Below, one piece after another: positions 13,357 through 55,865 of a stretch of DNA of 64,000 bases. This DNA is from an uncultured Gemmatimonadota bacterium. Its GTDB lineage: Bacteria > Gemmatimonadota > Gemmatimonadetes > Gemmatimonadales > Gemmatimonadaceae. Position numbers and translations under genes: made by a program. Positions within the stretch are counted from its first letter, which is position 1, and every line of letters begins with the position of its first letter. The stretch covers positions 1 through 64,000 of the forward strand of contig CAIVZZ010000010.1 of the NCBI GenBank assembly GCA_903910555.1, in the 5' to 3' direction. The notes below the pieces were generated by a model, which made no database searches, was not told the DNA's origin, and saw nothing but the letters and a program-made list of their open reading frames with translations.

Positions 13357-13468
13357 CGGGGCTCCACGCGTTTTTGGACGGCTCGAATCAAGGGGCGAAT
13401 CGGGGGCAAAAACTGCTCAGGGCTAAGATGTGCCTTGCCCACACGATGCGAAAGGCAATCTTTACAGT

Positions 13469-13837
13469 ATGGCCACTCCCTATTTCGCCCGCGGTATCCC
13501 GCTTCTGCTCGTCGCCAACGTCCGGGCCTCAATCGAGTTCTACGTCGACGTGCTCGATTTCAAGATGGGATTCAACGCCGGGGAGTACGGCGGAGTCCGG
13601 CGCGACGCCATCGAGATTCATTTTTGGCGGACCGACGATCTCAACCTGCCGAAGGTGTCGAGCTGCAGGATCGAGGTGACGGAGATCAGGCAGCTGTACA
13701 GTCACTGCCGGGATCGGGGGATCGTGGACCCGGCAGGGGATATAGCGGCACAGACTTGGGGGACGACCGAGTTTGTCGCGCTCGACCCGGATGGAAATCG
13801 GCTGACATTTGTTGAGGTGTTCGGGCTCGGATCGTAA
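13469..13837 (+). CDS. VOC-superfamily (glyoxalase/bleomycin-resistance-like) protein
   Basis: 122 residues from the ATG at 13469. A longer frame begins at 13430, but those residues do not look like VOC sequence. One VOC module is visible: IPLLLVANVRASIEFYVDVLDFK, the metal-ligand region IEIHFWRTDD, and WGTTEFVALDPDGNRLTFVEV at the end. Such proteins bind hydrophobic antibiotics or act as small metal-dependent enzymes; which applies here is unknown. It is a single gene, convergent with the aquaporin, and a large palindrome fills the gap and may end both transcripts. Confidence 0.82.
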   Translation: MATPYFARGIPLLLVANVRASIEFYVDVLDFKMGFNAGEYGGVRRDAIEIHFWRTDDLNLPKVSSCRIEVTEIRQLYSHCRDRGIVDPAGDIAAQTWGTTEFVALDPDGNRLTFVEVFGLGS

Positions 13838-13849
13838 ACAACCCTACGA

Positions 13850-13996
13850 CGAGTGAACTGTTAACTACTAACTGTTGGTCGGTGTTCTGTTAGAAAATCA
13901 GTCCGGGCCACGAACCGCTTCGACGAGGTTCGTGGCCCGGACTGAGTATTACACCTTGGTTAACCGACCAACAGTTAGTGGTTAACAGTTCACTCG
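13850..13996. repeat. Two-tier palindromic element, copy 1 of a three-copy family
   Basis: Outer arms at 13850-13883 and 13963-13996 pair over 34 bases with one mismatch (a G-U in RNA). They read CGAGTGAACTGTTAACTA followed by CTAACTGTTGGTCGGT. Inside them, 13898-13916 and 13927-13945 form a perfect 19-bp GC-rich stem (TCAGTCCGGGCCACGAACC) with a 10-nt loop. The unpaired 3' side contains ACACCTTGG. A run of eight T follows at 14004-14011. The element lies between convergent genes. The outer arm is shared with the copy at 32323, and the core plus ACACCTTGG with the copy at 29229. Confidence 0.93.
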
Positions 13997-14010
13997 CCGT
14001 ATGTTTTTTT

Positions 14011-14745
<735 letters not shown>

Positions 14746-19392: not shown

Positions 19393-19408
19393 CGAGTGAG
19401 AGGGGCGA

Positions 19409-19490
19409 GATGGGAGATCAGTCACCAGATGGGAGATCAGACTCGAGGGGCTCACCCCGTGTACTCGCCCCTCGAGTCTACCCTCCCATC
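19409..19490. repeat. Palindrome plus direct repeat between divergent sugar operons
   Basis: A perfect 13-bp inverted repeat, AGACTCGAGGGGC at 19439-19451 and its complement at 19467-19479, is flanked by GATGGGAG (19428-19435) and CTCCCATC (19483-19490). GATGGGAGATCAG also occurs twice in direct orientation, at 19409-19421 and 19428-19440. The set lies between the two leaderless promoters, so it could be a regulator binding array. It could equally be one of the dispersed intergenic palindromes of this genome. Confidence 0.85.
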
Positions 19491-19540
19491 TCGTGTCTGC
19501 TCTCTCATCTCCCGCACTTCCGTCGCTGAGGAACGGCTCG

Positions 19541-25297: not shown

Positions 25298-25990
25298 ATG
25301 ACCGCCGACGAGCAGAATCCCAGCCGCCGCAAGTTCATCGCCAACGTCGCCGGAAGTGCATCGGCGCTCGCCGCGGTGGGATTCAGTGCGGGTGAGCTCC
25401 TTGCACAGGGTACGCCCGCCGCGCCGCAGGGTTCGTGGGACATGTCGTGGGTGGACCGTCTCGCGCGAGCGAAGCACAAGATGGTGTTCGACGCGCCGTG
25501 GATGGCAGAGGGCATGGCGCTCAGCAACGCGGTCACGTGGCTCAACGGCTACAGTGAGGTTTACAAGACGACGGACGCGGAGATGGGCGCCGTGCTGGTG
25601 TTCCGTCACAAGGGACTGCCGCTCATTCTCAACGACGAAATGTGGTCGTTACTGACATACGGCGAAGACGAAAAGATCACCGATCCTGCCACGGGTGCCA
25701 CAACCAAACGGAATCCGTTCTTGAAGGCCGCGGGCGGTCGCGGCGGGGTCTCGCTCTTTCCCAACGGCGACGTCGAGTCGCTGATCGCGCGCGGTGCAAC
25801 GGTGATTGCGTGCAATCAGGCGCTGATGCGGCATGTGGGTCCGCTCGCGAAGGCTGCGAATATCTCGCGCGACGAGGCGCAGCAGAAACTCATTGCGTCG
25901 GTCGTGCCAGGGGTGATCAGGATGCCGTCGGGCGTGTTTGCGACTTCGCGGGCCGAAGAAGCGGGGTGTCAGTTCCTGCGGTCGAGTTGA
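25298..25990 (+). CDS. Tat-signal DsrE-like protein of unknown function
   Basis: 230 residues. Tat motif SRRKFIANVAG at 9-19 with a hydrophobic run and the likely cleavage site around LLAQG. The mature part has NAVTWLNGYSEVYKTTDAEMGAVLVFRHKGLPLILNDEMW, a CNQALM segment and a conserved end VPGVIRMPSGVFATSRAEEAGCQFL. That layout resembles exported proteins loosely related to DsrE (sulfur relay), but the two cysteines do not prove a sulfur function. A GAGG sequence lies upstream of the ATG at 25298. It appears to be transcribed alone, divergent from the hydrolase-like gene. Confidence 0.65.
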   Translation: MTADEQNPSRRKFIANVAGSASALAAVGFSAGELLAQGTPAAPQGSWDMSWVDRLARAKHKMVFDAPWMAEGMALSNAVTWLNGYSEVYKTTDAEMGAVLVFRHKGLPLILNDEMWSLLTYGEDEKITDPATGATTKRNPFLKAAGGRGGVSLFPNGDVESLIARGATVIACNQALMRHVGPLAKAANISRDEAQQKLIASVVPGVIRMPSGVFATSRAEEAGCQFLRSS

Positions 25991-26057
25991 GTTTTGAACG
26001 GCGACTGATGTTTTCAGACGCTAGACCTAAAGATTCTAGACGCTTGATCGAGCTCTG

Positions 26058-29171: not shown

Positions 29172-29228
29172 CAACGTTTACGAGCGCGGCCGAAGCGAAC
29201 AACGGACATTTTCGCCACCTGCAGTTTG

Positions 29229-29347
29229 CTGTTTTCTGTTGGTCGGTTAAGTAATGTTAAACAATCAGCCCGGACTTCTTACCGCGTCGAGCGGCTCGGA
29301 GTCCGGGCTGATTTTCACACCTTGGTTAACCGACCAACAGAAAACAG
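29229..29347. repeat. Two-tier palindromic element, copy 2
   Basis: Outer arms at 29229-29250 and 29326-29347 are perfectly complementary over 22 bases around CTGTTGGTCGGTTAA. An inner stem, AATCAGCCCGGACT at 29263-29276 with 29300-29313, is also perfect over 14. The 3' side carries ACACCTTGGTTAACCGACC, identical to copy 1 at 13951-13969. The two copies thus share the outer core, the spacer and the ATCAG-x-CCGG style of inner stem, while the outer arm ends differ. It sits between convergent genes. Confidence 0.92.
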
Positions 29348-29403
29348 TTAACTCGTCCGTAACCGCGAGTCTCGAAGTCAATCCGCGGTGCCGCTCGTGA
29401 CAT

Positions 29404-32271: not shown

Positions 32272-32322
32272 CATGGTCGGATGGGGTGTGGCGTTCGGTT
32301 TCGGTGGTGTCACAACATACGG

Positions 32323-32418
32323 CGAGTGAACTGTTAACTACTAACTGTTGGTCGGTGTTCTGTTGACGAATTGGTACACTGAAAACCGACCAACAGTTAG
32401 TAGTTAACGGTTCACTTG
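32323..32418. repeat. Palindromic element, copy 3 (single-tier form)
   Basis: Left arm 32323-32356 is identical over all 34 bases to the left arm of copy 1 and stays identical for eight more (GTTCTGTT). Right arm 32385-32418 pairs with two mismatches. The GC-rich inner stem is missing and is replaced by a 28-nt loop. It lies between divergent genes, so it is unlikely to be only a terminator. Confidence 0.93.
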
Positions 32419-32505
32419 CGGTGGCCGTTCTTGCCATTCCGGAGTGCGTTCCCGCCGCGCCCGCGATAACTTTAGCGCGTCGCGAATACCACCTCCGGAG
32501 TCGCT

Positions 32506-43110: not shown

Positions 43111-43212
43111 GCGCTCCAGGTCCCAAAGGGCGCGAGCCCGCCAACTCCGCCAGGGCCGAAAGGCAGCAACGGTACGTGGTGTCTTACGTCGCTTTGTCAG
43201 GCCTGGAGTATC
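43111..43212 (+). ncRNA. ffs: Signal recognition particle RNA, small bacterial type
   Basis: GCGCTCCAGG near 43111-43120 pairs with CCTGGAGT at about 43202-43209. Inside is the Ffh-binding region CAGGGCCGAAAGGCAGCAACGG at 43151-43172, close to the universal SRP signature (GGAAGCAGC-type asymmetric loop and GNRA-like tetraloop). The length of about 100 nt fits the small SRP RNA without an Alu domain. It pairs with Ffh to deliver nascent membrane and secreted proteins to FtsY. It lies between a promoter and a strong terminator, upstream of dnaX, a location seen in many bacteria. Confidence 0.93.
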
Positions 43213-43256: not shown

Positions 43257-43260
43257 ATTA

Positions 43261-43402
43261 GCTCAGAGTTCAAGCTCAAAGTTCGCCGGCTCCCAGCTTG
43301 GCCTTGTCATGGCTCAAGCTCAGAGCGCCCACAGCTGCAGTCAGCTGGAGCTATGACACTGCCAAGCTGGGAGCTGGCGACCTCTGAGCTTGAACGTTGA
43401 GC
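43261..43402. repeat. Giant intergenic palindrome, 55-bp arms
   Basis: Arms 43261-43315 and 43348-43402 are complementary at 47 of 55 positions, with a 32-nt loop that itself contains CAGCTG-N4-CAGCTG. The central part is GGCTCCCAGCTTGGC. It lies between the SRP RNA terminator and the dnaX promoter, so it is not needed to terminate ffs. It does not share sequence with the palindromes at 13850, 29229 and 32323. Confidence 0.93.
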
Positions 43403-43441
43403 TTCCGCCAACTTGCACTAACCGTCATGCGTCCGCGCGAC

Positions 43442-55732: not shown

Positions 55733-55865
55733 GGCGACGAGCGACTGGTAAATGGCGATCTGGCGCATGGCGACTCGCACGGGGCAAGTCGAACAAGCGT
55801 TGTTCCACTCACTCCGTGCCACTCACAATGCACCAGATCGCCATTTACGAGTCGCCAGTCGCCGC
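55733..55865. repeat. Large imperfect palindrome overlapping an Fpg/Nei stop codon
   Basis: The core GTAAATGGCGATCTGG (55748-55763) pairs perfectly over 16 bp with 55833-55848. Imperfect pairing extends on both sides, to GGCGAC and GTCGCC outside and to GCACGG and CCGTGC inside. The right arm contains the stop codon of the glycosylase gene (55845). It has no shared word with the other palindromes. Confidence 0.85.

Follow-up and report, generated by a model that had tools for sequence, protein, structure and literature searches.

Two protein genes, named from reading of their sequences as VOC-like and aquaporin-like (MIP), flank a near-palindromic element in the window, the stretch of 64,000 nucleotides analysed here. 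The window belongs to a 3.2-Mb Gemmatimonadota genome (G000), and the named contigs that match the host are Gemmatimonadetes MAGs. Gene calls were made with a simple codon model. The neighbors of the element are protein genes and not rRNA, and no PF05635 open reading frame, of the kind considered below, is present in this copy. The parts of the element, its flanking genes and its two further copies in the window are collected in Table 1.

Table 1. Features of the palindromic element, its flanks and its additional copies in the window
Feature	Position	Strand	Basis or remark
Whole near-palindromic element	13846..14003	. (orientation arbitrary)	Arm geometry and RNA fold; covariance model R1 matches 13848-13998 on both strands
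Left outer arm	13850..13883	+	Heptamers (CGAGTG) AACTGTT AACTACT AACTGTT GGTCGGT; heptads read by inspection, backed by period-7 statistics
Alternative module GTTCTGT, left arm	13884..13890	+	Comparison of copies
GC-rich core stem, left half	13898..13916	+	Stem pairing; covariation
GC-rich core stem, right half	13927..13945	+	Stem pairing
ACACCTTGG, part of alternative module ACCTTGGTTAA	13951..13959	+	Pairs in copies with TTAACCAAGGT on the left
Right outer arm	13963..13996	+	Pairs with left outer arm
VOC-like flanking gene	13430..13837	+	Ends 12 bp before the element; name from reading of sequence
Aquaporin-like (MIP) flanking gene	14011..14655	-	Ends about 14 bp after the arm; name from reading of sequence
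Second window copy	29219..29357 (approximate)	.	Short-arm variant, one heptamer missing
Third window copy	32321..32420 (approximate)	.	Short form without GC-rich core

The element is a two-tier palindrome, as the initial annotation had proposed. Its outer arms pair over 34 bp with one mismatch and enclose a perfect inner stem of 19 bp, and the predicted RNA fold of -107.7 kcal/mol (z -16.3) was equalled by none of 200 shuffled sequences. The outer stem was also correctly described as AT-rich relative to its surroundings, with 44% GC in the arms vs 62% in the window. By our own reading the arms are built of heptamers (AACTGTT, AACTACT, AACTGTT, GGTCGGT and TAACCAA); the ends of the arms carry CGAGT, the elements are about 150 bp long, and the short-arm variant (GTTTTCTGTTGG) has one heptamer less. 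Strict tandem-array scoring does not detect this family, because its heptamers have diverged. Next to the heptamers each arm carries one of two alternative modules, TTAACCAAGGT/ACCTTGGTTAA or GTTCTGT/ACAGAAC, and the window copy is mixed. The strand ACACCTTGG, which had been taken for a conserved unpaired segment, is paired in most copies with the complementary TTAACCAAGGT on the other arm; it is unpaired in the window copy because two alternative modules meet there. An Rfam scan of the window gave nothing above the gathering score except SRP RNA. Resemblance to an attC site was considered by eye and discarded, as the core words failed to match the R-box pattern.

Copies of the element are dispersed through the genome. 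The 12-mer CTGTTGGTCGGT was found 6 times in the window with at most one mismatch allowed, vs 0.16 expected by chance. In the genome it occurs 71 times vs once for its reversed control. Forty paired copies were assembled, 35 with the central stem and 5 as short forms, and single-arm (half) copies exist besides. A covariance model of 154 positions, built from 21 copies, gave 91 matches on the two strands, which correspond to about 46 places since a near-palindrome scores on both strands. Within the core, 8 of 13 pairs are changed on both sides, with 28 cells showing double changes vs 10.9 in shuffles. The initial annotation is therefore supported in part: the intergenic palindromic family that it proposed is present genome-wide, covaries in its stem, includes two more copies in the window and extends to three congeneric species, but the window element is one of many equal copies and not a "founder". 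On the sense strand no bias of G.U over A.C was found (60 to 48, P 0.29), and a selected RNA hairpin is accordingly not demonstrated. Among 26 copies with readable ends there was no target-site duplication, no offset or length performing better than permutation (smallest P 0.22); a TA duplication, hinted at by eye in a few copies, was ruled out in the same way.

One copy of the family (L071, at G000:C11:20874-21490) has a gene between its two arms, which are exactly the arms of the window family. A profile search matches the encoded protein to PF05635 (S23p, the 23S rRNA intervening-sequence protein family) with 108 bits, and finds 11 PF05635 genes in G000 altogether. All 11 are flanked by inverted arms scoring 52-143 bits, each pair being a family of its own; the control maxima were 31.6 bits for 150 mispaired flanks and 30.0 bits for 300 random places, so that none of the 450 controls was as strong. 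Among relatives in the order, 20 of 28 PF05635 genes exceed the control maximum, while the 8 that fail include some shortened by contig ends. The gene-bearing copies encode PF05635 proteins only. Autocorrelation of the PF05635 flanks peaks at lags of 7, 14, 21 and 28, and the best flank period is 7 or 14 at 25 of 34 Gemmatimonadota loci and at 13 of 15 loci on plasmids (14 of the 15 belonging to phyla other than Gemmatimonadota) vs 54 of 400 controls, the period and random-place controls taking the composition of one genome. We know of no catalytic activity of S23p. It is a four-helix-bundle protein; the structures of its relatives 2gsc and 2rld each contain five chains, and a homopentameric ring has been described (PMC4990558). 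No earlier link between PF05635 and repeats was found in the literature, as covered by open-licence papers. Neither a Y1/HUH transposase (PF01797, in a search that was positive in 5 of 14 control genomes) nor a reverse transcriptase (PF00078) is matched by profile search in G000, which rules out readings of the system as RAYT or as a diversity-generating retroelement.

At least three other arm families are likewise dispersed as gene-less palindromes. The arms of PF05635 locus L072 recur in roughly 20 palindromes of the genome, those of L076 in about ten. Palindromes of such other words also occur in the window. One of 147 bp at 43258-43403, with AGCTCAC-type words, belongs to the arm family of PF05635 locus L069 and lies directly after a small SRP RNA gene (43115-43210). 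Another of 130 bp at 55733-55864 is of the GGCGAATGGCGACTGG family, the arms of PF05635 locus L075, and a short palindrome at 25989-26041, flanked by two plus-strand genes, is of the GTCTAGAGTCT family (L072 arms). A fourth, of 105 bp at 19407-19511 with GGGAGATCAG-like words, is without an identified PF05635 partner.

Comparison of species within the genus separates the history of the gene from that of its arms. The L071 ortholog is a single-copy gene located between pth and ychF (both named from sequence) in 12 genomes of the genus; it is vertically inherited and, with a dN/dS of 0.03-0.2, under purifying selection. The arms at pth-ychF differ between species, most with a terminal GCGAGT-like tag. 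Matches to the model of the window family number 48 in G002, 33 in G012 and 15 in G010, in addition to those in G000, and at most one in each of the other 14 congeners. L071 orthologs of at least 80% identity are restricted to G000, G002 and G012, and the association between presence of the ortholog and of family copies has a Fisher probability of 0.005, uncorrected for relatedness of the genomes. Several of the assemblies compared are fragmented. When the arms of seven species were searched against eight genomes, the own-genome share of the matches listed was 17 of 17 for G001, 9 of 9 for G005, 12 of 14 for G006, 5 of 5 for G011 and 3 of 4 for G009; these counts include the gene's own arms and are uncorrected for kinship among the genomes. 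The sites retrieved are mostly palindromes made of the same words. The scattered repeats of each species match its own S23p arms, and repeats and arms have diverged together. G010 is at odds with this pattern: it has copies of the window family without a detectable L071 ortholog, and for its abundant TTGGTCA family the assembly contains no matching S23p gene.

Orthologous sites differ in occupancy. In G002 the site of the window copy is empty; in G010 it is taken by a palindrome built from other words, and the L020 site is empty there. Several other orthologous sites hold either a member of the same family (in G002 or G012) or a different heptamer palindrome. Since many copies are common to orthologous sites between species, their spread must be old or slow, and the mixture of empty, shared and replaced sites points to an old population with turnover. 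At intergenic sites of G010 (L175-L178), orthologous to sites of the window family, TTGGTCA-type heptamer palindromes take its place.

The best surviving alternative is that the elements are bidirectional terminators or 3'-end stabilizers maintained by the host and spread by recombination, and that S23p merely landed in one of them. The location of the copies is in keeping with such a role: a stop codon lies within 40 bp of 35 of the 40 copies, and the median distance is 11 bp to 3' ends vs 56 bp to 5' ends. Of 39 classified copies, 18 are between convergent genes, whereas of the adjacent gene pairs 7 of 55 are convergent (P 0.0007), but this excess is not significant against intergenic gaps longer than 60 bp (P 0.14). 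On each strand the core ends in a T-run, and a loose terminator scan accepts one of the two strands; the outer 34-bp arms and the short core-less copies are unlike an intrinsic terminator. Host terminators would also not account for the finding that every S23p gene of the genome lies in such a palindrome, each with its own family, for the half copies, or for the scattered copies that track the gene's arm sequence species by species among the matches listed. We regard this explanation as unlikely.

Still less probable is an origin without any protein, by replication slippage and quasi-palindrome templating at heptamer arrays that S23p tolerates or attracts for unrelated reasons. Short and long arms do differ by whole heptamers, and templated repair can correct cruciform-prone DNA to perfect palindromes. 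Such a process leaves unexplained the words shared, genome by genome, between arms and scattered copies, as well as the link to PF05635, seen in Gemmatimonadota and again in cyanobacteria and inside a 23S gene. That these are ordinary MITEs, moved by an arm-cutting DDE transposase with the S23p gene as passenger, would suit their inverted ends, intergenic position and gene-bearing and gene-less forms, but is very improbable given ends devoid of direct-repeat signal in the 26 readable copies, S23p as the only gene carried and a gene that stays in place while its arms vary between species.

Outside Gemmatimonadota, 6 of 14 loci scored above the maximum of the mispaired control in the arm test. 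S23p genes of cyanobacterial plasmids are adjoined by inverted or repeated words (e.g., GGAGTCA, AGGTGAC, GGGAACA and AGCTTTT); in just 2 of 4 such stretches does the arm word form a further array away from the gene, and the evidence from these plasmids is modest. The Azospirillum locus among those examined outside the phylum is embedded in a 23S rRNA gene; RF02541 extends across the whole stretch, which identifies the locus as an intervening sequence with similar heptamer arms. Heptamer-armed S23p genes were also seen in other surroundings: in type I-D CRISPR loci of cyanobacterial plasmids, with cas6 and cas4 on either side (L152 and L161), beside Cas10/Cmr genes (L154), and, as a free gene, on plasmid pANA02 of Anabaena sp. 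90 (L202), which carries a diversity-generating retroelement (reverse transcriptase and Avd) as well.

We consider it probable, though by no means secure, that the window element is a scattered copy, lacking the gene, of a heptamer palindrome family whose gene-bearing copy is the vertically inherited, single-copy S23p gene at pth-ychF, and that the family spreads by an S23p mechanism. In favor of this reading stand the linkage of gene and arms, the sister families, the agreement of arms with scattered copies in each species, the location of copies just behind stop codons and the differences in occupancy at orthologous sites. The elements are best read as the REPIN-like, gene-less members of S23p-linked families; the evidence suggests that S23p runs families of mobile palindromes, and we infer that the protein itself drives their copying. 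The five chains of the 2gsc and 2rld entries and the described pentameric ring (PMC4990558) lead to the proposal that S23p reads heptamer arrays: the ring would read successive heptamers in single-stranded or hairpin arms (about five heptamers, or 35 nt, per arm) and, together with host replication and repair enzymes, might copy or insert new hairpins into structured 3' ends of genes. The GC-rich core, with its runs of A and T, probably acts in addition as a terminator for transcripts arriving from either side, in which case such insertions would be tolerable. More tentatively, and with slightly less than even confidence, S23p may be the core of widespread, transposase-independent replicating elements, a ring that maintains palindrome families across whole genomes, and these elements would include 23S intervening sequences with or without an ORF and the intergenic heptamer repeats of cyanobacteria. 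If S23p does own dispersed palindromes, the heptamer arms of each family would give its protein a substrate open to testing.

Several known systems share features with these elements. MITEs such as Correia, RUP and ERIC are short intergenic inverted-repeat elements of 100-160 bp, whereas for the elements described here neither a target duplication nor a transposase partner was found. The STRR repeats of cyanobacteria consist of seven-base words in intergenic tandem arrays. So do the TAACTGA repeats of Beggiatoaceae and cyanobacteria, which differ in being direct and mostly not inverted, in lying (in Beggiatoaceae) mainly before start codons, and in having no reported link to S23p (PMC4679880); for heptamer repeats of this kind the S23p reading, if true, would offer an explanation. 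The Avd protein of diversity-generating retroelements is structurally related to PF05635 (PMC10053308), but the genome has no reverse transcriptase, and no template or variable repeats were seen.

Closer parallels are found in REPINs with their RAYT protein (PMC8049555, PMC3116915, PMC8266576), where scattered palindromes accompany a single-copy, vertically inherited gene with the same flanking palindromes, and where populations are old and common to several species. The partner in Gemmatimonadota is a four-helix-bundle protein and not a Y1/HUH transposase, consistent with the lack of PF01797 in the genome, and each element is an array of heptamers some 150 bp long with terminal CGAGT, in contrast to REPs of 20-40 bp with a GTAG/GGAG tag. 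If the proposal is true, S23p and its palindromes would resemble REPINs with RAYT but without the HUH transposase, a second REPIN-like system in bacteria. The other parallel is the 23S rRNA intervening sequence with an S23p ORF in Leptospira and Coxiella, which shares PF05635, terminal inverted repeats and tandem heptamers beside the ORF (PMC4990558); in Coxiella the stem is an inverted repeat of 28 bp and the heptamers read GACAGAT. The likeness extends to a PF05635 ORF inside an inverted-repeat stem, as found in L071 and 10 other gene-bearing loci, while the elements described here differ in lying between protein genes, where intervening sequences sit in rRNA and are cut out by RNase III, and in making up families with tens of scattered copies that lack the gene. 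IVP genes have also been described from CPR bacteria, in insertions of the 16S and the 23S rRNA (PMC11270868), and the origin and role of 23S intervening sequences and of S23p have been called unclear (PMC4990558). They resemble what members of S23p-linked families would be once inserted in rRNA; if S23p indeed owns the dispersed palindromes, the intervening sequences would be the version of a general element that resides in rRNA.
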